Shown here: in pieces, positions 1 to 26,484 of the stretch | Layout of the letters: each line of letters begins with the position of its first letter | Numbering within the stretch: position 1 is the stretch's first letter | NCBI GenBank assembly: GCA_011052815.1 | Contig: DRIG01000064.1 | Location: forward strand, 1-35,632 | Origin: a candidate division WOR-3 bacterium | GTDB taxonomy: Bacteria; Hydrothermota; Tepidihabitantia; SM23-42 | Direction of reading: 5' to 3' | DNA: 35,632 nucleotides | Notes under the pieces: generated by a model | The model's input: the letters and a program-made list of their open reading frames with translations, nothing else | Told to the model about the DNA's origin: nothing | Database searches by the model: none | Position numbers and translations under genes: made by a program

Positions 1-213
1 AAAAATATCTTTAAACTCATCAGAACTGTTCTTGAAATTCGACCATTTTAATGCGCTTATTCCTGCCACATGTTTTAGAAACAATACTTCCTTCAGCAGT
101 AAATTGTAATCTGGAACAGATATCTTAACCCATGACCGAATATAATATGCACTATTATCCCAGGTACCGGCTTCGTCTGAATAAATAATAAAATCTATAT
201 TCTTATTCTGCAT
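1..213 (-). CDS. DUF3800-like protein, N-terminal part (cut by window edge)
   Basis: The first 71 codons are in the window; the gene runs off the left edge. The N-terminus has the pattern FIIYSDEAGTW, like the 'DE(S/A)G' opening of DUF3800 proteins, a family with an RNase H-like fold that is common in defence islands and mobile elements. I chose ATG at 213. A TTG at 219 in the same frame has a GGAGGA 11 nt ahead of it and could be used instead. It lies about 150 nt downstream of the hairpin-promoter module at 328-403 and its start overlaps an 11-codon leader ORF by 11 nt. Family assignment rests on a short motif only. Confidence 0.55.
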   Translation of the reverse strand, partial: MQNKNIDFIIYSDEAGTWDNSAYYIRSWVKISVPDYNLLLKEVLFLKHVAGISALKWSNFKNSSDEFKDIF

Positions 214-238
214 CTTCAATTATACTAATCTCCTCCAT
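203..238 (-). CDS. possible 11-codon leader ORF overlapping the DUF3800-like start
   Basis: ATG GAG GAG ... GCA GAA TAA encodes MEEISIIEDAE. Its stop overlaps the ATG of the next gene (ATGCAGAATAA, 11 nt). The frame stays open upstream to about 290 without another ATG, GTG or TTG. It belongs to the set of short leader ORFs that end inside the start of an island gene. It has no good ribosome site of its own, so it may be only a coincidence or the end of a decayed gene. Confidence 0.25.
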   Translation of the reverse strand: MEEISIIEDAE

Positions 239-327
239 AGTTAAAAATAATATTCCTCTCGCTTCATTCCTGTTCTCCTCTACCCTATTTCCTTACTCAG
301 CGAAAGATCTAAAACAACCAGGCATAT

Positions 328-353
328 CTTTTGACAGTAAAACCTGTCAAAAG
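328..353 (-). ncRNA. leader hairpin of module A
   Basis: Perfect 10-bp stem (328-337 with 344-353, CTTTTGACAG on either strand) with a 6-nt loop, just downstream of the promoter at 376-403. It occupies the same place as the hairpins of modules B to F but its stem sequence is unrelated to theirs. The following sequence TTGTTTT is a weak T tract. Confidence 0.5.
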
Positions 354-375
354 AAACATCCCTTCTTCTCCCATT

Positions 376-403
376 ATTATACAAACCATTTCTAACCTGT
401 CAA
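376..403 (-). promoter_or_regulatory. sigma70-type promoter of module A
   Basis: On the minus strand TTGACA (403-398), 16-nt spacer, TATAAT (381-376). Both boxes are consensus. It reads toward the hairpin at 328-353 and the DUF3800-like gene. A degenerate form of the inverted repeat found ahead of modules B to E is at about 442-461, overlapping the end of the nucleotidyltransferase gene. Confidence 0.75.
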
Positions 404-2110: not shown

Positions 2111-2323
2111 TCATTGAATAGTTGAAGGTTTTATAGTGTAAGTATATCCATACCTCCAACCTTCGCCACCTGGGCCACCCGTATAATCAGGTAATGAAAG
2201 CATTTGCTGTTCCCATCTTCGTGCTTCATCTTCACTGTTGAAACTCCATTGCTTCCAATCACTCGGATCGCCATGCTCTTGCCGACGACGAACAGGATCA
2301 TCGGTTAATCCTACGTACTTCAT
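2111..2323 (-). CDS. small GIY-YIG-like protein
   Basis: 70 aa. The N-terminal KYVGLTDDPVRRRQEHGDP resembles the start of GIY-YIG nuclease domains (YxG, then R-rich helix), but the protein is too short for a complete domain and ends soon after a Trp/Glu-rich helix. Similar short proteins occur as stand-alone genes in bacteria and archaea; whether they cut DNA is not known. The start has a strong GAGGAGG site 6 nt away. The gene is driven by module B (promoter 2435-2462), which fits island cargo. Confidence 0.65.
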   Translation of the reverse strand: MKYVGLTDDPVRRRQEHGDPSDWKQWSFNSEDEARRWEQQMLSLPDYTGGPGGEGWRYGYTYTIKPSTIQ

Positions 2324-2376
2324 TTTTTCCTCCTCTTTTTTCTTTCCTATTACACAGCTAACTTACCTAATACAAA

Positions 2377-2418
2377 AAGGTATAGCTTCAGCAGACGTGC
2401 TGCTGAAGTTCATACCTT
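2377..2418 (-). ncRNA. leader hairpin/attenuator of module B
   Basis: Read leftwards: outer stem AAGGTATG with CTATACCTT, inner 9-bp stem CTTCAGCAG/CTGCTGAAG, 5-nt loop, then TTTTTG. It looks like an intrinsic terminator about 20 nt after the predicted start of transcription, ahead of the GIY-YIG-like gene. Nearly identical to the hairpin of module D. Confidence 0.7.
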
Positions 2419-2434
2419 CTCTTTTCTTCTCTCT

Positions 2435-2462
2435 ATTATACCAACTATTTCCCGCCTGTCAA
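2435..2462 (-). promoter_or_regulatory. sigma70-type promoter of module B
   Basis: Minus strand: TTGACA (2462-2457), 16 nt, TATAAT (2440-2435) with TGG just ahead of the -10 box (extended -10). Upstream is the inverted repeat at 2466-2485 (GAAATCAG TTT CGAAATTTC on the plus strand). Confidence 0.8.
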
Positions 2463-2511
2463 GAGGAAATCAGTTTCGAAATTTCGGGGCCAAGCACATA
2501 CCTTTTGTTTA

Positions 2512-3932: not shown

Positions 3933-4937
3933 TTAATCGTTTTGGATATGACATTCTACATACTCCTTTATCTCTCCTTCTATACACGAGAATCTATCAT
4001 TTTTAATCTTGAATAAACCCTTAAATTTATCACCTAAGGCGTCGGGATATTTATCAACAATGGTTAATGTTTCAAGTGGTCTTCGTCTCATAGCAACGGA
4101 CTTCATAAAAAGCCATTTAGCCTTAAAATCAGTAACAGGGAGGGAATATCCGATAATAATTATTTTATTAGCCTCTTTTATTGAATTTGATGCTTCAGCC
4201 CAGAGAGAATCCAATAATTCATTCGAGTATCTCTTCGCTAATGTTGGTGGAATAATGATAGGTTCCATTTGCTTCTGACACCCTGGACACAGCGTTTTTG
4301 GATCTTCTGGGTTAATTACTTGGTCTGCAGCGACCTTTCCACTTAAGACATAGCAGTAATTCTTATTACATTTTTTACATGCCATCCAATTAAGAGAACC
4401 GTGCAATTTGATTAAACCAGGGCCATTTGAATATCCGCAGCTTCGCCGCCATTGATTATCTATATAAAATGCTGAGAAATTGCCTTTATAGTCTGGAACA
4501 TCTCTTTCTGATAAAACATTATCTACCAGAAGATCCCAGTTAAATGTAATCAGTGTATCAGTAGGTTTTAAGTTTTCTATCAGCTTTTTATGGTAAGGAC
4601 ATCTTTTACCATACAATATTTTATTAAGTGTCAGAAAAATCATCTCCAATAACTCTTTTCGGGCCATCTTCAACTCATTTTTGGATGTTTCTAAATCGAG
4701 CATAGTTAAAACTTCTTCAATATCCAATTCCTTTTCTTTTATATCTTCTTTTTTGAAGCAGTAATATTTCTCTAAGAAGTTAAATAAATTATGGAATCTT
4801 TGTCCTTCGATAGCATTTTTATCTATCAATTGCATAGCCTTTTTGAAAAAATCTCTGGCCGTTGGAGAACGAAGAGACACTTCAGACTTATCATATCCTG
4901 CTGATGCTCCAGCACCAAGAATATATACTTTATTCAT
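3933..4937 (-). CDS. SIR2-like NADase-type defence protein
   Basis: 334 aa. SIR2-family marks are clear: GAGAS at residues 8-12 (NAD-binding), TFNWD at 131-135 with the catalytic-type Asn, KLHGSLNW at 177-184 with the His, and IIIIGYSLPVTD near 259-270. A zinc ribbon is inserted (CxxC at 187/190 and 217/220). Related SIR2 domains in anti-phage systems degrade NAD to stop infected cells. The ATG at 4937 has GGGAGG 5 nt upstream; an ATG at 4970 in the same frame lies within the leader ORF. The start overlaps the leader ORF stop by 8 nt (ATGAATAA). Cargo of module C. Confidence 0.85.
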   Translation of the reverse strand: MNKVYILGAGASAGYDKSEVSLRSPTARDFFKKAMQLIDKNAIEGQRFHNLFNFLEKYYCFKKEDIKEKELDIEEVLTMLDLETSKNELKMARKELLEMIFLTLNKILYGKRCPYHKKLIENLKPTDTLITFNWDLLVDNVLSERDVPDYKGNFSAFYIDNQWRRSCGYSNGPGLIKLHGSLNWMACKKCNKNYCYVLSGKVAADQVINPEDPKTLCPGCQKQMEPIIIPPTLAKRYSNELLDSLWAEASNSIKEANKIIIIGYSLPVTDFKAKWLFMKSVAMRRRPLETLTIVDKYPDALGDKFKGLFKIKNDRFSCIEGEIKEYVECHIQND

Positions 4938-5055
4938 CTTTCCTCCCTTGCTGTAGTATGACATCTGCACCTACATGATAATGGTTCATCTTTACAATTG
5001 GCTCCCATTCAAGATTAAACAGGGTTCCTTGCAATTCGAATCTGTCAATCAGCAT
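4930..5055 (-). CDS. 41-codon leader ORF, family MLIxRF (copy 1)
   Basis: Encodes MLIDRFELQGTLFNLEWEP continuing to GRKDE. A second copy at 19778-19915 keeps the frame through silent changes, conservative replacements and a 6-nt in-frame insertion, which argues that it is translated. It has no cysteines, no signal and no domain I know. AAAAGGAG lies 12 nt ahead of the ATG. The stop lies inside the start of the SIR2-like gene. It could be a regulatory leader peptide or a small antitoxin-like partner. Confidence 0.65.
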   Translation of the reverse strand: MLIDRFELQGTLFNLEWEPIVKMNHYHVGADVILQQGRKDE

Positions 5056-5110
5056 TCCCAATTTTTTCTCCTTTTATTCCTTTCCATCAATCTTATTTTC
5101 CTAATACAAC

Positions 5111-5153
5111 AAGGTATGTTCTTTAGTAGAAAATCCTACTAAAGACATACCTT
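5111..5153 (-). ncRNA. leader hairpin of module C
   Basis: Outer stem AAGGTATGT/ACATACCTT, inner 9-bp stem CTTTAGTAG/CTACTAAAG, loop GATTTT. Same outer stem as in modules B, D and E but a different inner stem than B and D. Followed by GTTGTATTAGG, so a weaker terminator than D. Confidence 0.7.
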
Positions 5154-5169
5154 CTCTTTTCTTCTTTCT

Positions 5170-5197
5170 ATTATACCAACTATTCCCAATCTGTCAA
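5170..5197 (-). promoter_or_regulatory. sigma70-type promoter of module C
   Basis: Minus strand: TTGACA (5197-5192), 16 nt, TATAAT (5175-5170), extended -10 TGG. The -35 box overlaps the TGA stop (5194-5196) of the upstream 506-aa gene. The inverted repeat GAAATTAG TTT CGAAATTTC (5201-5220) codes for the last residues of that gene. Confidence 0.8.
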
Positions 5198-6714
5198 GGG
5201 GAAATTAGTTTCGAAATTTCGGGTCTAACCGAAACGGCTTCCTCTTGCAAGTTTTGAGCAAGATCTCTAAATTTATCTCCTATTTGAGGTACTCCTTTTC
5301 TTATATAATTTTTATTGTTTTTATTTACCAAATAAATATCAAATTCATCATCAGGTTTATCCTTTATTTTTCTACTTACCACATCAATTATTGATTGGTT
5401 TGACCAATAATGTAAAGCGATAAGACGTTCAAAATTTTTAATATCTATTATTTGACATCGCTTAACAAATTGGTGGAAGCATTGACTACCCCTGTAGTTA
5501 CTTTGCGTGTCTAAAATAACCTCTTGTCTATAGAATGGAGTATTTGCAAAAAAGAATCGCCGATATGTTACAACTAAACAATAACTGTTTTTAATTTTCG
5601 AACTAATCTTGGGGACATAGCCTTTCTTTACAGCTTCATTGAATTCAAAACACTGGACAACCGCATTACCAAGTTTTTTACCTTCATCAACTTTCAATCT
5701 ATTTTCATCTATATAGGGAATCGCCTCCTCAATCCCCTTACATTCAATTAACAACATCTCATCTCTACTTATAACCACAAAATCAGGGCACTTACCTCGA
5801 TGCTTTAACTCTTTCTCGGAAAACCATTTTATATTGTGTTTATTATTTATTATCCCCAAAAGTTCTGCGATATACGCTTGAAACCTCTTACCAAATCTTT
5901 CGGTGAATTTATAACCATATTTTTCCTTTAGGATGTGATACGGACCAAAACATAATCTATTGGTAAAAAAATGAGGCCACGGAGCAATATAAGAATCTGC
6001 ATCAAGTTGTATAAGAGGATATTTTTCGAGCACTGGCGGGCTGAATCTTTCAAAAAGATCACCTCGTAAATCATGTTTGGAAACACGTTTACGGAATTCA
6101 CAAAAGTCCGATTTTATATATTTAAGAAGGAAATTAATTTTCGGGGGACGCAATATCTCAAAATTTGATTTTTTGAACTTTTCTGGGAAAAAGAGTCTCG
6201 CTCTCAATGTTATGGCATAGATTAGCATACAACCCCGACAAAACTCATAAATTGATAATTTAACTAATTCCTGAAACATCCTATCATATTCAGTGTCCTT
6301 GAATAAATAAATTGTTCTACCTATTGCGTCAGGATCCACAATTTCTTGATATGGAGCTTGAGACCATTGAAACAACCATTTGATGATTACTGTTAATGAA
6401 ATATTTCTCTTTTTAGCATAGTTAAATTGAGGAAACTTCATTGCATAATAAATTTTTGCTAATGAAAAAAGATCCTTTAAATAGAATTCTTTACGCTTCT
6501 CATGTGGATTTTCGTCAGCTAATATACTCAATTTAATCATATGATACATATCATGAAGAGTAGTTTTCCGCTGTTCCTGAAGATTTTTGTCAACCACCCA
6601 CATTCTTTTAGCAATAGTACTTATTAACGACCTCGGCTTAAAACGCCTAATTCGTTTTTTAAGCTGATTAATCTGATCAAAATAAATATATCTTTCGGAC
6701 GAACCGTCTGTCAT
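5194..6714 (-). CDS. PD-(D/E)XK nuclease-like protein downstream of hsdR
   Basis: 506 aa. Most of the protein is helical and not recognised. Residues around 310-335 read CPDFVVISRDEMLLIECKG, the D...(E)xK pattern of restriction-nuclease folds, with a helix and a Gln in VVQCFEF further on. It is the last gene of the type I restriction operon, 16 nt after hsdR. Its final codons (PEISKLISP) and TGA are made of the module C inverted repeat and -35 box, so the module probably joined or replaced its original end. Function beyond a likely nuclease is unknown. Confidence 0.65.
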   Translation of the reverse strand: MTDGSSERYIYFDQINQLKKRIRRFKPRSLISTIAKRMWVVDKNLQEQRKTTLHDMYHMIKLSILADENPHEKRKEFYLKDLFSLAKIYYAMKFPQFNYAKKRNISLTVIIKWLFQWSQAPYQEIVDPDAIGRTIYLFKDTEYDRMFQELVKLSIYEFCRGCMLIYAITLRARLFFPEKFKKSNFEILRPPKINFLLKYIKSDFCEFRKRVSKHDLRGDLFERFSPPVLEKYPLIQLDADSYIAPWPHFFTNRLCFGPYHILKEKYGYKFTERFGKRFQAYIAELLGIINNKHNIKWFSEKELKHRGKCPDFVVISRDEMLLIECKGIEEAIPYIDENRLKVDEGKKLGNAVVQCFEFNEAVKKGYVPKISSKIKNSYCLVVTYRRFFFANTPFYRQEVILDTQSNYRGSQCFHQFVKRCQIIDIKNFERLIALHYWSNQSIIDVVSRKIKDKPDDEFDIYLVNKNNKNYIRKGVPQIGDKFRDLAQNLQEEAVSVRPEISKLISP

Positions 6715-12727: not shown

Positions 12728-13323
12728 TTCGTCACCCCTGTCTGCCGCGCTGCTTCGCTCTGCGGCCTGCCTGTCGGGCACACGGGCGCAGGCAGGTCCG
12801 CGAGCATGTCGGCAATTCCCACAGGCTCGCCCAGCGGCTCTCCTGCTATGAACCACCGCACCGTTCCTTGGCCTTTGTTGTTGACATCCAGGATCAGAAA
12901 GACGCCGACCTTATAACGGTATTCGCCGCGCGGATCAGTGAAGCCTTGCAGCTTATTAATGTCCCTTTCGTTGTCGGCGGAGCAATTCCTGGCGTTCGAC
13001 TTCTTTACTTCGATGACCAACAGATTGTTGTCCTGAACTCCTCGCTTGTGGATGATAATATCCGGGTAAACGGTAACCGCATCCAGGTCATCGGAACGGC
13101 AGTCCGTTGGGCCAACGGGGAGACGCTTCGTCTCGTTGCCTTGTCGGTTGTACTCACAATCCACATTATAATCCGGGAAGGCTTCGTGGAGATGTTCTGC
13201 GAGACAATGCGTGATCGATCGCTCGTTGACGTTGAGGCCGAGCAGATCGCCGTCCTTACTCAGGAAACCCACGAGGGCGGAACGGAAGCGATCACGAACC
13301 TCAGGTGGAACGCCGCCGTTCAT
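12724..13323 (-). CDS. PD-(D/E)XK nuclease-like accessory gene of the type I locus
   Basis: 199 aa. Core DIIIHKRG...NLLVIEVKKS has the D and ExK of a restriction-nuclease fold; an N-terminal Glu (around residue 35-45) may complete it. Overlaps hsdM and hsdS by 4 nt. The last 30 codons are an inserted GC-rich palindrome (CCTGCCTG at 12766-12773 with CAGGCAGG at 12789-12796), giving a Pro/Arg/Gln-rich tail unlike the body. Similar small genes occur within other type I loci; their job is not known to me. Confidence 0.7.
   Translation of the reverse strand: MNGGVPPEVRDRFRSALVGFLSKDGDLLGLNVNERSITHCLAEHLHEAFPDYNVDCEYNRQGNETKRLPVGPTDCRSDDLDAVTVYPDIIIHKRGVQDNNLLVIEVKKSNARNCSADNERDINKLQGFTDPRGEYRYKVGVFLILDVNNKGQGTVRWFIAGEPLGEPVGIADMLADLPAPVCPTGRPQSEAARQTGVTK
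12766..12796. repeat. palindrome inserted in the 3' end of the nuclease-like gene
   Basis: CCTGCCTG and CAGGCAGG separated by 15 bp. The sequence is of a kind often dispersed in genomes and here encodes the tail of the gene without breaking the frame. Confidence 0.55.
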
Positions 13324-15332
13324 TCCGTCACCTCCGCGAGCATGTCCGCGATTTCCTGCTCAATCTTCTTCAAGTCGGCTTCGATTTCCTCCAGTGGTCG
13401 CGGAGGCGTATACTTGTAGAAGTAGCGGTTGAAGTTAATCTCGTAGCCTATTCTTGTCTTGCTGTGATCGATCCAGGCGTCGGGAACATGTGGCAAGACT
13501 TCCCGTTCAAAATAAGCCTGCACATCTTCCTTCAGCGGCACGTTCTCGTAATCGCGCAATTCTGGATCAGGATCGGGATTGCCCTTGGAATCAGTGCAGA
13601 TGTCCGCCGTTTCATCCCGCTCCGCCAGCGCCATAAGTATGGCCTTGAAAAGGGACGCTGGGACTTTGATGCTCGCTTTCCTGAACGCCTCTTTCAACAT
13701 CTTCACAAAACGATCGCGGTTCTTGACCACACCCATCCCACTCAAGTCGTTAAGTGCCGATAGGATCGCTTCCTGAAGTCTCTTCCCTTCAGCTATCTCG
13801 GATTCGGCCTTCTTTTTATCCTTGCGCTTCTTACTCGTTGCCAGGTTCAGGAATTGTCTGGTTTCACGTACGCGCGCAAGTCGTTCGTCTGTAACAGTGA
13901 AATTCAACTTCAAAGGTCGCTCTACCGTGATACGCCGGTAGCCGAAGTCCTCGTTATCGAATATCTTGACATACTCTTTTTCCCTAAACTCGCCGTAGAG
14001 GCGGGTGATTTCTTCTCGTTGGTCTTCGCATATCTCGTGGCGCTTCTGGCCCAAACTCTTGCGCATTTTCTTGAAGAAAGTCCTGGCATCCACAAGTTGA
14101 ACTTTGCCTCTGCGCTTCCTTTCCTTCCGGTTCGTAACAATCCAGAGGTAGGTATAGATGCCGGTATTATAGAAAAGCTGGTCGGGCAGGGCGACAATGC
14201 CTTCCAGCCAGTCGTTTTCGATAATCCAGCGACGGATTTCACTCTCGCCAGAGCCTGCACCGCCGGTAAACAAAGGAGACCCGTTGAAAACTATGGCAAG
14301 GCGCGTGCCACCTTCTTTGGGATCCTTCATCTTACTGATCATATGTTGCAGAAAAAGCAAGGACCCATCGTTGATGCGCGGCAGTCCCGCGCCGAAGCGG
14401 CCTCCGAAGCCCTGTTCCTCATGTTCCCGCTTGATAAAATCAGCCTCAGGTTTCCACTCCACACCGAAAGGTGGATTAGCCAACATATAATCAAACTTTT
14501 TATCATGGAAACGGTCTTCCGTGAAACTATCCCCAAAAGCGATGTGATCAATATTATAACCCTTGATCAGCATGTCCGAGCCGCAAATAGCATAGGCCTG
14601 CGGGTTGAAATCCTGTCCAAAGACCTCGAGACGTGCGTCAGGGTTAAGCTCGCGTACATAGCTTTCAGCAACAGAAAGCATCCCTCCGGTGCCGCAGGCA
14701 GGGTCATAAAGAGTTTTAATGATGCGTTTCGTGGTGAGAATATCGGTGTCAGGGAGAAACAGAAGGTCAACCATTAGCCGGATAACTTCGCGCGGCGTGA
14801 AATGGTCGCCCGCTTCTTCGTTACTAGCTTCGTTGAAACGCCTGACAAGTTCCTCAAAGATATAGCCCATCTCTCGGTTGGACACTCTGTCCGGGTGGAG
14901 ATCTATTTCGCAGAACTTTGATACGAGAAGATACAACCGATTGGCTTTGTCGAGTTTGGCAATGTGTTCCTCAAAGCCGAAGTGCTCGATGATCTCGCGG
15001 GCACGACTGGAGAAACCTTTGATGTAGTTCGTAAGATTGGCTGCGATGTTGTTGGGATCACCTTTCAGCTTTTCGAATGTAAAGCGACTCGTGTTGTAAA
15101 ATGGTACACCGGATACCCGACAAAGGATGGGTTCCACGTTTTTAAGCTTGGAGTCTTGCAGCTTCCTGAGCTTGTTCAATACTTTTTCCTTGGTCGGTTC
15201 CAACACGCAGTCAAGCCGCCGAAGGGCTGTCATCGGAAGCATGACATCCTTGTATTGATTCGGCCGATATGGCCCGCGCAGGAGATCTGCAACAGACCAG
15301 ATGAAACTAACCTTTTCACCGAAGTTATTCAC
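13320..15332 (-). CDS. hsdM: type I restriction enzyme methylation subunit
   Basis: 670 aa. Starts MNNFGEKVSFIWSVADLLRG at a GTG with AAGGGAG upstream. Methyltransferase motifs: DPACGTGG (210-217) for SAM, NPPF (286-289) for N6-adenine transfer, and HFTPREVIRLM before them. A charged C-terminal third binds HsdS. The start overlaps a 43-codon leader ORF by 8 nt (GTGAATAA). First main gene of a ten-kb operon with higher GC than the genes around it, which suggests it came in as a block. Confidence 0.95.
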   Translation of the reverse strand: MNNFGEKVSFIWSVADLLRGPYRPNQYKDVMLPMTALRRLDCVLEPTKEKVLNKLRKLQDSKLKNVEPILCRVSGVPFYNTSRFTFEKLKGDPNNIAANLTNYIKGFSSRAREIIEHFGFEEHIAKLDKANRLYLLVSKFCEIDLHPDRVSNREMGYIFEELVRRFNEASNEEAGDHFTPREVIRLMVDLLFLPDTDILTTKRIIKTLYDPACGTGGMLSVAESYVRELNPDARLEVFGQDFNPQAYAICGSDMLIKGYNIDHIAFGDSFTEDRFHDKKFDYMLANPPFGVEWKPEADFIKREHEEQGFGGRFGAGLPRINDGSLLFLQHMISKMKDPKEGGTRLAIVFNGSPLFTGGAGSGESEIRRWIIENDWLEGIVALPDQLFYNTGIYTYLWIVTNRKERKRRGKVQLVDARTFFKKMRKSLGQKRHEICEDQREEITRLYGEFREKEYVKIFDNEDFGYRRITVERPLKLNFTVTDERLARVRETRQFLNLATSKKRKDKKKAESEIAEGKRLQEAILSALNDLSGMGVVKNRDRFVKMLKEAFRKASIKVPASLFKAILMALAERDETADICTDSKGNPDPDPELRDYENVPLKEDVQAYFEREVLPHVPDAWIDHSKTRIGYEINFNRYFYKYTPPRPLEEIEADLKKIEQEIADMLAEVTE

Positions 15333-15456
15333 GGTCTCCCTTCTTTTCTAGCTTCCCGCACAGTCCTTTGAAATACACTGAATTTAAAAAATCCAACATT
15401 TCATCAGCTACATCCCACAATCTTTTTTCAACTTCAGCTATATGATTTTTTGTCAT
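15325..15456 (-). CDS. 43-codon leader ORF ahead of hsdM
   Basis: Starts MTKNHIAEVEKRLWDVADEM and ends in a Lys/Glu-rich tail. It has an excellent AAAGGAGG 7 nt before the ATG and its TAA overlaps the GTG of hsdM by 8 nt, so ribosomes ending here can start hsdM. The phrase VEKRLWDVADEM is like the beginning of other HsdM proteins, so it may be a leftover of an older hsdM or a true leader peptide. Confidence 0.65.
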   Translation of the reverse strand: MTKNHIAEVEKRLWDVADEMLDFLNSVYFKGLCGKLEKKGDRE

Positions 15457-15502: not shown

Positions 15503-15530
15503 AATTTACACTTTTTTAACATTATGTCAA
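15503..15530 (-). promoter_or_regulatory. second promoter of the hsd operon
   Basis: Minus strand: TTGACA (15530-15525), 16 nt, TAAATT (15508-15503). It lies downstream of the module D hairpin, so it could express hsdM when the hairpin stops transcripts from the first promoter. It matches the promoter of the DUF4139 gene (26229-26256) at 23 of 28 positions. Confidence 0.6.
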
Positions 15531-15561
15531 CTGTTTTCAATTTTCATATCTTACAAAAAAA

Positions 15562-15603
15562 AAGGTATGGCTTCAGCAGACGTGCTGCTGAAGTTCATAC
15601 CTT
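15562..15603 (-). ncRNA. leader hairpin/terminator of module D
   Basis: Read leftwards: AAGGTATG, inner stem CTTCAGCAG/CTGCTGAAG, CATACCTT followed by ten T in all. This is the form of a strong intrinsic terminator about 60 nt after the start of transcription, before the hsd operon. Either a premature stop that is relieved under some condition, or the source of a tiny RNA. Confidence 0.75.
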
Positions 15604-15619
15604 CTCTTTTCTTCTCTTT

Positions 15620-15647
15620 ATTATACCAACTATTCCCCACCTGTCAA
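15620..15647 (-). promoter_or_regulatory. sigma70-type promoter of module D
   Basis: Minus strand: TTGACA (15647-15642), 16 nt, TATAAT (15625-15620), extended -10 TGG. Inverted repeat 15651-15670 just upstream. Nearly identical to module B over about 110 bp. Confidence 0.8.
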
Positions 15648-15690
15648 GGGGAAATTAGTTTCGAAATTTCAGGGGTAAGGCCACTAATGT

Positions 15691-15728
15691 CACTCCGTCA
15701 TTCTGGTAATTACCAGAATGACGGATTG
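15691..15728. repeat. 38-bp palindrome (TCATTCTGG family), copy 2
   Basis: CACTCCGTCATTCTGGTAA followed directly by TTACCAGAATGACGGATTG. One arm base differs from perfect pairing. Same element as 1801-1838. Confidence 0.75.
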
Positions 15729-18302: not shown

Positions 18303-19631
18303 TTACCTCTTCTTAAATTTTGATGTGTATTTATTGAAAAAGTGTTTTGCTAGAGCTTTTGTATTCATTTTTTCATACATGTCTATTTTTTTATCTATTC
18401 TTTTATCTCTTGGAACATCAATTATCATATGAAGTACATTTTTGAATCTGGATGCTGGACCTTCGCTGTCAAGTCGTCCTATAATAATAAGATCGTTATC
18501 AAGTGCATCCATCAACGAAGAAATATTTTGTGAATTCCAAGATTTTATCATTTGTTTGTTATAGTACTCTGCTCCCCAAGAGCATCCATATTGATTGCCA
18601 ATATATGAAAGAAATACAGCTCGAGTACATTGGTCTATTGCCGAGGAAGGAATAACGTCGCCCAACTCATAAAGTTCTTTAGCGTATCTAGGTTCATTGT
18701 GGAAATTATCTATGCCTTGACACGCTTCATATAATTTTTCAGCTGCACTTGTGAAGATTGCTACACGAATAGATTCGGGTACAAATTTAAATCCATCAAC
18801 TTTTTTGATAAATATTAAAGCTTGTTTATTCGCCATAGAATCTGCTTCGGTCCTTAATTTGGCTATTACCCTTCCAATCCTTGATTTTGTACTTGAATCT
18901 GCAAGTTCCCATAAAACAGGAGCCAATGTTAATATGTTATTGATATAGATGTGGTTAGATTTTTCTTTAATAAAGTCGTCGAAAAGTCTATTGAGTGTAA
19001 TATTTACTATCTTAGATGATTGTTCACGATAAGTTGCCTCAAATTCAGATATACTAGAAGATACATCTTCTGTTTGGAGTTTCTTTAACAAGTTTTTTAA
19101 ATTTATACCTGGGGAGGGAACTTGATGAGCTAAAACATACTTAATACAATTTTTGATTATATTTAGCGCTTCGATTGGATCGAGTAGAGCGTCAAATTGA
19201 TGTGCTAAAGAATAGTGGTTTCGTATTTCTCTCGCCTTATGCAAAAAAAACCATGCTTCTTCTGAAATAATGCCGAGTTCGAAACAATGATCAATTAAAT
19301 TTTTATCATCAAGAATATTTATTAAGTCTCTTTCATCGTGAATTTCCTTCTTAATTATTGCTTCCAAGTGTTCTTTGCCATATGCCATTACTTTGGTACG
19401 CAAATCTGCCATAGCTCTATTCCAAAAGTAAAGACAAGCTGAGTCATAGGCTTCAATCTGCCATACATCCAAGGCTTTTTCTATCCAAGGACCATGACAT
19501 TCTTTACGAATTGCCCTTTTAATAGTGGCGGGTTCTATTTTTGAATGAGAAAGCTTTTTCAACGCAAGTAAACGATCTTTTTGGGCTGGATCATCAATTG
19601 GTGTTGCAGGCAAAATTTCTCCTTTGTTCAC
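18303..19631 (-). CDS. helical protein with HEPN-like motif
   Basis: 442 aa, almost all helix. Near residues 130-145: EAWFFLHKAREIRNHYSLAH, with RNH...H spacing like HEPN RNase sites. The last 250 residues form a repeat-like helical region. GTG start with GGAGG 9 nt ahead; a 65-codon gene overlaps the first 38 nt. Third gene of module E, so likely the effector there. Family not identified with certainty. Confidence 0.6.
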   Translation of the reverse strand: MNKGEILPATPIDDPAQKDRLLALKKLSHSKIEPATIKRAIRKECHGPWIEKALDVWQIEAYDSACLYFWNRAMADLRTKVMAYGKEHLEAIIKKEIHDERDLINILDDKNLIDHCFELGIISEEAWFFLHKAREIRNHYSLAHQFDALLDPIEALNIIKNCIKYVLAHQVPSPGINLKNLLKKLQTEDVSSSISEFEATYREQSSKIVNITLNRLFDDFIKEKSNHIYINNILTLAPVLWELADSSTKSRIGRVIAKLRTEADSMANKQALIFIKKVDGFKFVPESIRVAIFTSAAEKLYEACQGIDNFHNEPRYAKELYELGDVIPSSAIDQCTRAVFLSYIGNQYGCSWGAEYYNKQMIKSWNSQNISSLMDALDNDLIIIGRLDSEGPASRFKNVLHMIIDVPRDKRIDKKIDMYEKMNTKALAKHFFNKYTSKFKKR

Positions 19632-19791
19632 AGCTCAAAACCTCCTTCAATCTAAAATATATTTGATGCAAATCTATAGGTTTATACATGTTCTCGATCA
19701 TCTCTTCTACTTCTTCTTGCTTCTCGAAAAAGGAAGCGATTTTAGTTTTGCTCTTAAATTTTTCTTCAAAAGCGATACTATCTCTTTTCAT
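19594..19791 (-). CDS. small acidic protein of module E
   Basis: 65 aa from ATG at 19791, which has GGGAGG just ahead. Charged helix (EEKFKSK...FFEKQEEVEEMIENMY), no domain recognised. It begins exactly where the SIR2-like gene begins in module C. It overlaps the 442-aa gene by 38 nt, so the two are probably made together; partner or inhibitor of that protein is a reasonable guess. Confidence 0.55.
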   Translation of the reverse strand: MKRDSIAFEEKFKSKTKIASFFEKQEEVEEMIENMYKPIDLHQIYFRLKEVLSCEQRRNFACNTN

Positions 19792-19915
19792 CTTTCCTCC
19801 CTTGCTGTAGTACAACATCTTGAACTGCACCTACATGATAATGATTTATATCTACAATTGGTTCCCATTCAAGATTAAACAGGGTTCCTTGCAATTCGAA
19901 TCTGTTAATCAGCAT
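19778..19915 (-). CDS. 45-codon leader ORF, family MLIxRF (copy 2)
   Basis: MLINRFELQGTLFNLEWEP to GRKDEKR. Compared with 4930-5055 it has a silent GAG/GAA, D/N and K/D changes, and two extra codons (VQ) without loss of frame. The upstream frame differs between copies, so the shared ATG is the likely start. Overlaps the next ATG by 14 nt. See the first copy for possible roles. Confidence 0.65.
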   Translation of the reverse strand: MLINRFELQGTLFNLEWEPIVDINHYHVGAVQDVVLQQGRKDEKR

Positions 19916-19970
19916 TCCAATTTTTTTTCTCCTTTTATTCCTTTCCATCAATCTTATTTTCCTATACAAC

Positions 19971-20013
19971 AAGGTATGTTCTTCAGTAGAAAATTCTACT
20001 AAAGACATACCTT
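19971..20013 (-). ncRNA. leader hairpin of module E
   Basis: Outer stem as in module C; inner stem CTTTAGTAG with CTACTGAAG, in which an A-to-G change relative to module C turns a U-A pair into U-G, so pairing is kept. Confidence 0.7.
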
Positions 20014-20030
20014 CTCTTTTTCTTCTCACA

Positions 20031-20058
20031 ATTATACACATTATTTTCAATTTGTCAA
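20031..20058 (-). promoter_or_regulatory. sigma70-type promoter of module E
   Basis: Minus strand: TTGACA (20058-20053), 16 nt, TATAAT (20036-20031). Inverted repeat GAAATTAG TCT CTAATTTC at 20062-20080, perfect over 8 bp per arm, 3 nt upstream of the -35 box. Confidence 0.8.
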
Positions 20059-20159
20059 GGGGAAATTAGTCTCTAATTTCTAGGTCTAACCCTTCTTTTA
20101 TCTATTTAATTAAGGATTTGTTTCGAAGAATCCGCTCAAAAAACGGTTATTTAATAATT

Positions 20160-20340: not shown

Positions 20341-20448
20341 ATGGGTATGAAACGGCGCAAATTTTATACTTATATTATTAAACTAATCTTTTACGTTTAT
20401 AATGTTCGGTATCTCTTAAGATGCTTAATCCGAAGACTGATGGTTTAG
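20341..20448 (+). CDS. possible 35-codon cationic peptide
   Basis: ATG at 20341 or 20347; MKRRKFYTYIIKLIFYVYNV with more Arg after it. Basic and hydrophobic like small membrane toxins. It would be leaderless from the sigma54 promoter just upstream. Only the position and composition support it. Confidence 0.3.
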   Translation: MGMKRRKFYTYIIKLIFYVYNVRYLLRCLIRRLMV

Positions 20449-20877
20449 GAAAATATTGGCAAGAGATTTACTAAAACTACAGATAATTGCCGCCTGTACG
20501 CATGGTTTTGCTAAATCTTCCAGGAAATTGTTTATTGCGGATAAGAGATTATTTATATAGATGAACTTTATTTCATTCGGATTTTTCTGTAAGCTCCGCA
20601 ATCTATCGCTTTCATAACTAAAAATTTCGTATTTTAACAACAATTGATGACCAACTAATCCGGCCGTCTCTGAAACCTCAAAATTACTGATGCGTATTTC
20701 ATTTTTAATAACCGAGAAAGATGGGAGAACTTCGTACCAGGCATTTTGTAACAAATTTAAAAATCGATTTTCTTTAATACCCAATAAATGTAAATTACTC
20801 ACAATGAATTCAAGATCAAGCTGGATTCTATCAATAAATTTTAAAATCAAAGTTTTATCAAGAGACATTGATTTCAT
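20425..20877 (-). CDS. helical protein of unknown function, partner of XRE gene
   Basis: 150 aa. Helical, with a hydrophobic C-terminal segment (CVQAAIICSFSKSLANIF). Not recognised. Starts 6 nt after the XRE gene with AAGGTAGC upstream, so they form a pair. May be a toxin or a regulator's partner. Confidence 0.55.
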   Translation of the reverse strand: MKSMSLDKTLILKFIDRIQLDLEFIVSNLHLLGIKENRFLNLLQNAWYEVLPSFSVIKNEIRISNFEVSETAGLVGHQLLLKYEIFSYESDRLRSLQKNPNEIKFIYINNLLSAINNFLEDLAKPCVQAAIICSFSKSLANIFLNHQSSD

Positions 20878-20883
20878 GCTACC

Positions 20884-21147
20884 TTATTTAAGAAGCTCCC
20901 AGGGTTCTAAACCAAAAGCCTTGGCAATCCGCTCTATATTAATTAAACTGACGTTACGCTCGCTGCGTTCAATACTACCAATATAAGTTCGATGTAAACC
21001 CGCATTCTTCGCTAACGTCTCTTGAGACCACCCTTTTTTTCTCCGTAATTCCTTCACCTTTACACCGAACTTTTTAAGTATGGTTATATCGCGCACATAC
21101 GATTTTATCATTTCTTTCAGTTTTTTCAATGAGACTATAAGTAGCAT
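20884..21147 (-). CDS. XRE-family regulator (C-protein-like)
   Basis: 87 aa. Helix-turn-helix in VKELRRKKGWSQETLAKNAG with HRTYIGSIERSERNVSL after it, very close in layout to controller proteins of restriction systems. The true start may be ATG at 21111 (MIKSYVRD), as the first 12 residues lack a ribosome site. Next to module F (divergent), which it may control. Confidence 0.8.
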   Translation of the reverse strand: MLLIVSLKKLKEMIKSYVRDITILKKFGVKVKELRRKKGWSQETLAKNAGLHRTYIGSIERSERNVSLINIERIAKAFGLEPWELLK

Positions 21148-21163
21148 TTTGATATCTTTCTTC

Positions 21164-21194
21164 TTGACTTTTAATTTATTCTGGATACTATAAT
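21164..21194 (+). promoter_or_regulatory. promoter of module F
   Basis: TTGACT (21164-21169), 19 nt, TATAAT (21189-21194). The only one here with a spacer other than 16. The -10 box region is followed by AAAAGAGAAGGTATG as in modules B to E. Confidence 0.6.
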
Positions 21195-21207
21195 CATGAA
21201 AAGAGAA

Positions 21208-21262
21208 GGTATGTTTGTTCTATAGTTCTATTTTCGAGCTATAGAGCAGATGTATCTTTTTT
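21208..21262 (+). ncRNA. leader hairpin/terminator of module F
   Basis: Inner stem of 12 bp (21217-21228 with 21236-21247, containing CTATAG; two G-U pairs), outer GGTAT/GTATC pairs, then six T. Same architecture as modules B to E with an unrelated inner sequence, on the opposite strand. Confidence 0.65.
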
Positions 21263-21291
21263 GTTTATTAAAAAACAACAAAAGGAGGTAT

Positions 21292-21858
21292 ATGGATTCA
21301 ACATCAAGCAGTGACATAATTTTAATCATAATAGGCTTTGTTGGCTTATCGATTATGATAATCGTTAAATATCTAATAGATAAAAAGAGAGCAATGATCG
21401 AATCAAAAGAAGTGGGAAACGTAATAACAAAGGCATTAACAGAACTCCAAAAAACACCGCAGGATGTTTTAGAGATAATGTACCGTAATGTTGCAGAATT
21501 AAAAGGATACTATACAACGAATAAACAACAGGCAAAAAATGCATACAACTCTGCATTATTTGTATGTTTTCTTGGATTTACGATTTTTATAATAGGAGTA
21601 GCAATTAACTACCTTTCGCCGGCTAAAAAAACGATTATTCCCTACGCAACACTTGCTGGAGCAATCGTTGAAGTTATTTCAGGACTATTCTTCTGGTTAT
21701 ACAGTCAGACTGTTAAGCAAATAAATACTTTCCATGATAAATTAATAGAAACTCAACGCTACCTTGCAGCAATTCAAATAGCAAAAAGTATCTCAGATGA
21801 AAATCGCGATAAGGTTTACGCTAATATTGTAGATAAACTAATGAAAGCGAAAAAGTAA
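21292..21858 (+). CDS. CyanoTRADDas_TM-like membrane protein
   Basis: 188 aa from the ATG with AAAGGAGG ahead; an in-frame ATG at 21250 is inside the hairpin zone. Helix 1 (IILIIIGFVGLSIMIIVKYLI) near residue 10, and two more helices near 90-135 (FVCFLGFTIFIIGVAINYL; TLAGAIVEVISGLFFWLY), then a soluble helix (FHDKLIETQRYLAAIQIAK). This matches the two-helix domain associated with TRADD-N-like proteins in predicted cell-death or conflict systems. Its family is my recognition, not a search. Cargo of module F. Confidence 0.6.
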   Translation: MDSTSSSDIILIIIGFVGLSIMIIVKYLIDKKRAMIESKEVGNVITKALTELQKTPQDVLEIMYRNVAELKGYYTTNKQQAKNAYNSALFVCFLGFTIFIIGVAINYLSPAKKTIIPYATLAGAIVEVISGLFFWLYSQTVKQINTFHDKLIETQRYLAAIQIAKSISDENRDKVYANIVDKLMKAKK

Positions 21859-24350: not shown

Positions 24351-24396
24351 GATTTTCCTGCAAAGGGCGGAGGGGGAAGGGCATAGGGAGTGGTGC

Positions 24397-24445
24397 TGGA
24401 TGAAAGATCACCCCCACCTTAATCCTCCCCCCTCAAGGGGGAGGA
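24397..24445. repeat. GC-rich palindromic repeat R, copy 3
   Basis: Opposite direction to copies 1 and 2. It marks the edge between the island and the chromosome genes, in a 330-bp purine-rich gap that has no gene I can see; the gap also has the GAGATTCTTCGCTTCGCTCAG part of the 1299 repeat at 24529-24558. Confidence 0.75.
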
Positions 24446-24570
24446 GGAAAGGGGTAAGGGCAAAGGGCGGAGGGCATAGGGAAAGGGAGAAATGGAGAAA
24501 GGGGGAAACGGAGAAACGGGGAAAGAGAGGGAGATTCTTCGCTTCGCTCAGAATGACAAGGAGAGAGGGA

Positions 24571-26256: not shown

Positions 26257-26294
26257 GGGAATGGGCATAGGGCGAAGAGCAAAGGGAGCGGGGT

Positions 26295-26346
26295 TGGATG
26301 AAAGATCACCCCCACCTTAATCCTCCCCCCTCAAGGGGGAGGAGGA
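26295..26346. repeat. GC-rich palindromic repeat R, copy 4
   Basis: Same repeat as 24397-24445. Lies in the 400-bp gap 26116-26518, which otherwise has purine-rich runs and two promoters. Confidence 0.75.
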
Positions 26347-26374
26347 GCGGAGAATGGGTGAATGGGAGCGGTGT

Positions 26375-26424
26375 TGGATGAAAGATCACCCCCACCTTAA
26401 TCCTCCCCCATCAAGGGGGAGGAG
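26375..26424. repeat. GC-rich palindromic repeat R, copy 5
   Basis: Second copy in tandem, 80 bp after copy 4, including the GGGAGCGG(T/G)GTTGGATGAAAGATC lead-in. Confidence 0.75.
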
Positions 26425-26484
26425 AAGAGGGGAAAGGGCGGGGAGCGGGGGAAACGGAGACGGGGAGAATGGGAGAAACGGCTA

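Follow-up and report, generated by a model that had tools for sequence, protein, structure and literature searches.

A contig of 35,632 nucleotides from a candidate division WOR-3 bacterium (GenBank DRIG01000064.1; the whole of this stretch is called the window below) carries at two places on its minus strand a very similar leader, and the genes behind the two copies are unrelated. How did one leader come to stand in front of different systems? An initial annotation made from the sequence had proposed that cargo was exchanged by recombination at the shared leader. The pair turns out to be one part only of a wider family: its promoter and hairpin recur at four other places in the window and elsewhere in the genome, a recurrence that the annotation had missed and that changes how the pair is best read.

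Results

One leader before two different gene sets

Self-BLAST of the whole window aligned the two leaders, copies A and B (Table 1), over 306 columns at 88% identity (E = 5e-106). When they were aligned globally together with 700 bp of flanking DNA, every block of 20 columns matched at 14-20 positions from about 5222/20083 down to ...GGGAGGAAAGATGAA, and the flanks on both sides lay at background (3-11 of 20). The homology begins at about 5230/20091, just before the -35 box, and stops at ATGAA, 2-3 nt past the ATG of the cargo gene. The central claim of the initial annotation, a single leader joined to two systems with similarity ending at the cargo start codon, is thus borne out. Its description of the copies as nearly identical overstates their likeness: they have diverged by about 12%, indels of 1 nt occur at several points of the UTR, and the leader ORF has one of 6 nt that keeps the frame. 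The cargoes do differ completely: a SIR2-like gene follows A and genes of 65 and 442 aa follow B, and neither BLASTP nor Pfam found between them the remote homology that would point to a simple duplication. Relatives of the 442-aa protein are free-standing plasmid genes in unrelated bacteria, one of which adjoins the antiphage gene ppl; a search of solved structures returned nothing credible for it.

Between A and B the leader ORF has seven substituted codons, with changes distributed 3/0/5 over the codon positions, and its sole indel is the one of 6 nt; this pattern weakly favours a sequence that is really translated. The ORF was found in none of 60 related genomes. Copy C, described below, aligns with A through the UTR to about the start of C's own gene, which suggests that the leader ORF of A and B sits in place of a first gene. 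In the best reading of the pair, both copies go back to a single one that already carried a small first cistron of 41-45 codons.

Table 1. Positions in the window of the promoter-hairpin copies and the genes behind them
Feature	Position	Strand	Remark
Copy A, full shared leader (upstream repeat, promoter, hairpin, UTR, leader ORF, ribosome site)	4933-5230	-	88% identical to B
A -35 box TTGACA	5192-5197	-	spacer 16
A -10 box TATAAT	5170-5175	-	
A 5' hairpin GGTATG...CATACC	5113-5151	-	tail CCTTGTTG, a weak U-tract; terminator score -13
A leader ORF, 41 codons + stop	4930-5055	-	overlaps SIR2 start codon
A cargo, SIR2-like protein, 334 aa	3933-4937	-	
A second gene, 234 aa	3154-3858	-	after SIR2-like gene; weak HNH match
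Copy B, full shared leader	19787-20091	-	self-BLAST and global alignment
B -35 box TTGACA	20053-20058	-	sequence
B -10 box TATAAT	20031-20036	-	sequence
B 5' hairpin	19973-20011	-	weak U-tract; fold z -7.8
B leader ORF, 45 codons + stop	19778-19915	-	overlaps start of 65-aa gene
B cargo 1, 65-aa ORF	19594-19791	-	no known family
B cargo 2, 442-aa protein	18303-19631	-	no named family
Copy C, promoter and hairpin	2372-2489	-	hairpin 2379-2416, then TTTTTG; recurrent part 2372-2440; self-BLAST homology 2321-2488
C cargo, 70-aa ORF	2111-2323	-	possible GIY-YIG remnant (weak, E 0.16)
Copy D, promoter and hairpin	15557-15674	-	hairpin 15564-15601, then T9; recurrent part 15557-15625; self-BLAST homology 15559-15674
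D second promoter-like site TTGACA-16-TAAATT	15503-15530	-	downstream of hairpin
D 43-codon ORF	15325-15456	-	overlaps hsdM GTG start; sequence unrelated to A/B leader ORF
D cargo, hsdM	13320-15332	-	first gene of type I RM operon extending to 6731
Copy F, -10 box and hairpin	21189-21263	+	hairpin 21208-21256, TTTTTT tail
F cargo, 188-aa protein	21292-21858	+	TRADD-N-associated two-transmembrane domain
Copy G, -10 box and hairpin	314-381	-	hairpin 321-362, decayed tail; -35 at 398-403
G cargo, 73-aa ORF	1-219	-	cut by contig end

A promoter and hairpin that recur in the window

Copies C and D were found by the same self-BLAST, and F and G were added by folding and a covariance model, which brings the window to six copies. 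All of them lie in its left 21.3 kb, the part that holds defence genes; the right third, with cell-wall, PTS, phosphatase and AAA genes, has none. A repeat upstream of A was considered as the operator of a regulon and set aside, being present in the window only at A, C and D. The 43-codon ORF of D resembles by eye the N-terminus of HsdM and has no Pfam match.

What the copies have in common is a core of about 115 bp, in which a consensus TTGACA-16-TATAAT promoter is followed by a purine-rich stretch and by a transcript that starts with a hairpin and continues into a U-rich tail. In A, C, D and G the sigma-70-type hexamers match at 12 of 12 positions and stand 16 nt apart, and the same layout is seen in relatives; F has TTGACT and a longer spacer. 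The hairpin begins about 0-9 nt from the expected transcription start (median spacing from -10 box to stem, 10 nt), and its basal stem consists of GAGAAGGUAUG paired with CAUACCUUUUU. The leader RNAs of A-D each fold into a single hairpin with z-scores of -3.2 to -7.8 (for A, -25.2 kcal/mol and z -5.7).

The signal preserved in this hairpin behaves as RNA. Natural hairpins have a mean folding energy of -20.4 kcal/mol; exchanging arms between dissimilar copies weakens this to -10.2, and just 1.3% of the exchanges are as stable as the natural median. The basal helix pairs to 95.6%, and to only 28-67% once it is slid. Its sequence is conserved, whereas the upper stem is made of many different pairs (paired in 25-36 of the 39 copies collected from this genome and its relatives) and varies with compensation; exchanged arms do not fold, and so the upper stem covaries. 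G.U pairs occur at the -3 and -5 positions, which are conserved, and the distance between the arms varies widely, which argues for an RNA signal and rules out a DNA operator palindrome. The basal G.U pairs also permit a purine-rich 5' arm to stand alongside a U-rich 3' arm. A peptide begun at the AUG inside GGUAUG was likewise rejected: its frames are unconserved and stop within a few codons in several copies (F and G011 C47 among them). When the window was compared with Rfam 15, only a tRNA exceeded its gathering score, and no family matched the module.

Terminator-like signals of uneven strength

After the stem, T occurs at a frequency of 0.85-1.00 over the first 5 nt and 0.59-0.82 over the next 5, and falls to about 0.35 further on. 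Terminator scores are above zero in 25 of the 39 copies, compared with none of 760 control windows, and below zero in the other 14, which include A, B, G and several others with weak U-tracts or weak stems. Termination therefore cannot hold equally for all copies. Within the window C, D and F carry 5-9 T after the stem, and the tract has decayed in A, B and G; to judge from the residual tract (CCUUGUUG), A and B are probably read through freely, and an attenuator would be weak there. A simple terminator scan flagged none of these hairpins, whose stems reach into the U-tract and probably escaped it for that reason. Neither an alternative antiterminator fold nor a regulator came to light, and since the hairpin begins near +1 there is no upstream strand available to form one.

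A family amplified lineage by lineage

About ten copies lie in the window's own genome, before unrelated genes that serve mostly in defence against viruses, and the concentration of six of the ten in this one contig of 35.6 kb is far from random (binomial p ~2e-9). A first pattern, consisting of the promoter and the GAAGGTATG 5' arm with the 3' arm unspecified, gave 80 matches in 84,980 genomes. Seven of the 11 matches from Stahlbacteria/WOR-3 records hold the full hairpin and T-tract; most of those outside WOR-3 proved to be an ordinary ribosome site and ATG. A covariance model trained on 14 copies (genomes G003, G006 and G009 supplied no training sequence) found the ten or so copies of the window's own genome and 3-14 in four of six named genomes tried. 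Among 199 relatives every match of this model fell within the window's own family, with none in 177 genomes outside it. Rebuilt from 39 copies, the model gave 47 matches at E <= 0.01 in 8 of 23 genomes of the WOR-3/"Stahlbacteria" family; the 124 genomes searched from the rest of the phylum gave no match at E <= 0.001. Searches of plasmid, phage and viral contig sequences also returned no convincing match.

In 37 of the 39 copies a gene on the same strand comes next, often 10-60 nt on, with no room for another promoter; the two with no convincing same-strand gene behind them are both in the relative G014 (C98 and C37). The annotation's suggestion that related genomes be searched for other cargo behind such a leader proved fruitful. 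In the window's own genome the cargoes comprise, besides those of A, B, C, D and F (SIR2 with the weak HNH gene, the 65- and 442-aa genes, the GIY-YIG-like remnant, the type I RM operon and the two-TM protein), a type I-D operon led by cas10d (a type I-D cas operon lies on contig C92), a GIY-YIG/RAMA gene with an Eco57I-type methylase, a sigma-54/GAF regulator, and a 666-aa unknown upstream of genes that we named rnpA-yidD-yidC-like from the appearance of their sequences. Relatives add TIR-TPR, a CAP12-type TIR protein, HATPase with a cytosine methylase, a DitA-like protein and ORF6N, but also RHS, a C25 protease, secreted propellers and a PAS-HD protein. In descriptive terms, defence dominates the tally for this genome, and the family serves accessory genes more generally. 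On contig C92, at about 18.5 kb (L199), two modules stand in tandem before the GIY-YIG/RAMA gene; the second (AAGTATAAT...ATTATACCTTTT) was noticed by eye, having diverged beyond what the model detects.

Where copies precede unrelated genes, the stretch aligned by BLAST mostly starts about 20-50 nt before the -10 box and ends between a few and about 20 nt from the hairpin end. C-D, A-D, E-H and numerous pairs of G014 and G017 copies, both within one genome and across the two, share this extent, which indicates that the unit which spreads is normally the promoter and hairpin, to which the A/B pair is an exception. Sharing is longer in A-B (+173 nt), A-C (+47), G014 C126b-C196a (+114), C312-G017 C315 (+67) and C18-C312 (+59), and whole neighbourhoods are homologous in orthologues and in one local duplicate pair (G017 C262a/b). 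Each lineage has amplified versions of its own, A-D and E/H here and a near-identical group in G014, whose leaders (L206, L207, L208, L209 and L211) stand before TIR-TPR, PIN/GNAT, DitA-like, secreted propeller and other genes. The G014 group is an independent repeat of the finding. In two genera the module has been kept before orthologous sigma-54/GAF regulators (59% identity) even though the leader DNA no longer aligns, which argues for function.

Discussion

The T-tract, the terminator scores and the position of the hairpin near +1 favour a promoter-proximal terminator that is read through into the gene. We therefore think it rather likely that the module is an attenuator, copied lineage by lineage to sites before unrelated accessory genes. 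According to this view, a strong consensus promoter would drive an RNA that folds, over roughly its first 40-55 nt, into a hairpin with a U-rich tract, in effect an intrinsic terminator; much of the transcription would end there, and the gene would be made by read-through. Such read-through may be fixed, giving insulated low expression, or some factor able to recognise the basal stem, whose sequence is conserved, may raise it. Separate rounds of copying to new accessory genes would have multiplied the unit in several genomes. In A and B, where the leader ORF ends on the ribosome site of the next gene, that gene's translation may be coupled to it. A far more speculative idea, to which we give little credence, would make the conserved hairpin the sensor of a common switch: if a host or phage factor altered termination at the GAGAAGGUAUG/CAUACCUU stem, read-through of many defence and contact genes would rise together, so that infection, for example through phage interference with termination, would release defence.

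The hairpin might instead have nothing to do with termination. In 5' stem-loop mRNA stabilisers such as that of ompA, a hairpin stands at the extreme 5' end of the mRNA, and the module could be an element of this type that protects the message from decay or binds a protein, its U-rich tail being incidental. The hairpin indeed lies at or a few nucleotides past the expected +1, and A, B and G keep the stem with no good U-tract; a pure stabiliser, however, would not need the U-rich tail of about 10 nt that is conserved across diverged copies, and stabilisers of the ompA type have neither such a conserved tail nor a conserved basal sequence. We regard this account as unlikely. Each module could also be a stand-alone small RNA gene, made of a promoter, an RNA of about 60 nt and a terminator, that lies before other genes by chance. 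Copies C, D, E, F, H, I and J resemble complete units of this kind, and D has a promoter-like site of its own downstream of the hairpin. Many genes begin too soon after the hairpin to leave room for a promoter, however; loops and upper stems lack the sequence conservation expected of a trans-acting RNA, and two genera keep the module before orthologous genes, all of which makes this account very doubtful. Leaders of type III toxin-antitoxin systems (the ToxIN type) likewise place a promoter, a short structured RNA and a terminator before a protein gene. They differ from the module in that their antitoxin is a series of tandem repeats, where the module has a single hairpin and is followed by genes of many unrelated families.

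Exchange of cargo by homologous recombination at the shared leader, with the start-codon boundary as the joint, is what the A/B pair by itself would suggest, given that the likeness of the copies extends to the start codon and no further and that relatives of the B cargo are plasmid-borne. The wider family does not sustain this proposal, which we now consider quite improbable: at 12% divergence no recent exchange is visible, and most other pairs before unrelated genes share only the stretch from about -50 to the hairpin end. Because the leader ORF of A and B is absent from the 60 related genomes, an allelic replacement could not be observed in them. Plasmid-borne relatives of the B cargo, together with a leader that has no plasmid match, fit imported genes that were set behind a local leader, or before which a leader was copied, and these histories account for the data equally well or better. 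Copying of a promoter-attenuator explains the whole set better than cargo exchange does, possible as the latter is. The least credible source of the family, in our estimate, is a set of remnants of mobile elements (IS or prophage ends) later used as attenuators. Lineage-specific amplification before unrelated genes is the outcome expected of that process (PMC2965389), but no transposase was found among the window genes scanned, the unit has its own promoter and a single orientation to the genes, terminal inverted repeats are not evident by eye, and no phage, plasmid or viral contig holds a matching element.

The closest published idea is that of Naville and Gautheret (2010), who described attenuator "regulons" and "mobile attenuators" before non-homologous genes, some of them spread by copying (PMC2965389). 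The module resembles these in placing similar premature terminators upstream of unrelated genes. Unlike them, it has its own consensus promoter and a sequence-conserved basal stem below a freely varying, covarying top, occurs in one WOR-3 family only in the genomes searched, stands here mostly before defence genes, and shows no IS association. Promoter-level control is also known for a defence island with type I restriction genes among its members: there a protein repressor, RptR, acts on TAGCTA DNA repeats that overlap the -10 box (PMC12255303). Here the island is of a similar kind, but the promoters of A-D have no TAGCTA-type repeats, and the conserved signal behaves as RNA.

With no such family in Rfam 15, the module looks like a shared switch of gene control that had not been listed before. 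Little is understood of how a new host brings recently acquired defence genes under control, and one bacterial family appears to put a standard promoter and hairpin before unrelated imported genes. If the attenuator reading is true, about 47 co-controlled loci are now listed, accessory genes of a little-studied phylum (WOR-3) can be found by their leader alone, and control of defence islands at the RNA level becomes testable.

Other features of the window

Several observations lie beside this argument. A gene of 506 aa (5194-6714, minus strand) follows the type I RM genes directly and overlaps the beginning of leader A; it matches the GapS1 antiphage family with a partial score that falls short of the curated cut-off. 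Divergent from leader F are an HTH repressor of 87 aa and a 150-aa gene (20425-21147, minus strand), possibly a toxin-antitoxin-like pair. A near-perfect, REP-like palindrome of 38 bp (CACTCTGTCATTCTGGTAATTACCAGAATGACAGAGTG) occurs at 1801-1838 and at 15691-15728, the second copy shortly upstream of leader D. Decayed CRISPR-like repeats (GTTTCAATTCCTCATAGGTCTGCTATAAAT) lie 67 nt apart at 1640-1800 on the plus strand, where Rfam CRISPR-DR2 scores below gathering. Finally, G/C-rich repeat units of about 80-85 nt that bear TCCTCCCCCTTGAGGGGG are found, both in tandem and dispersed, at three intergenic places (1345-1518, 24386-24511 and 26281-26448).
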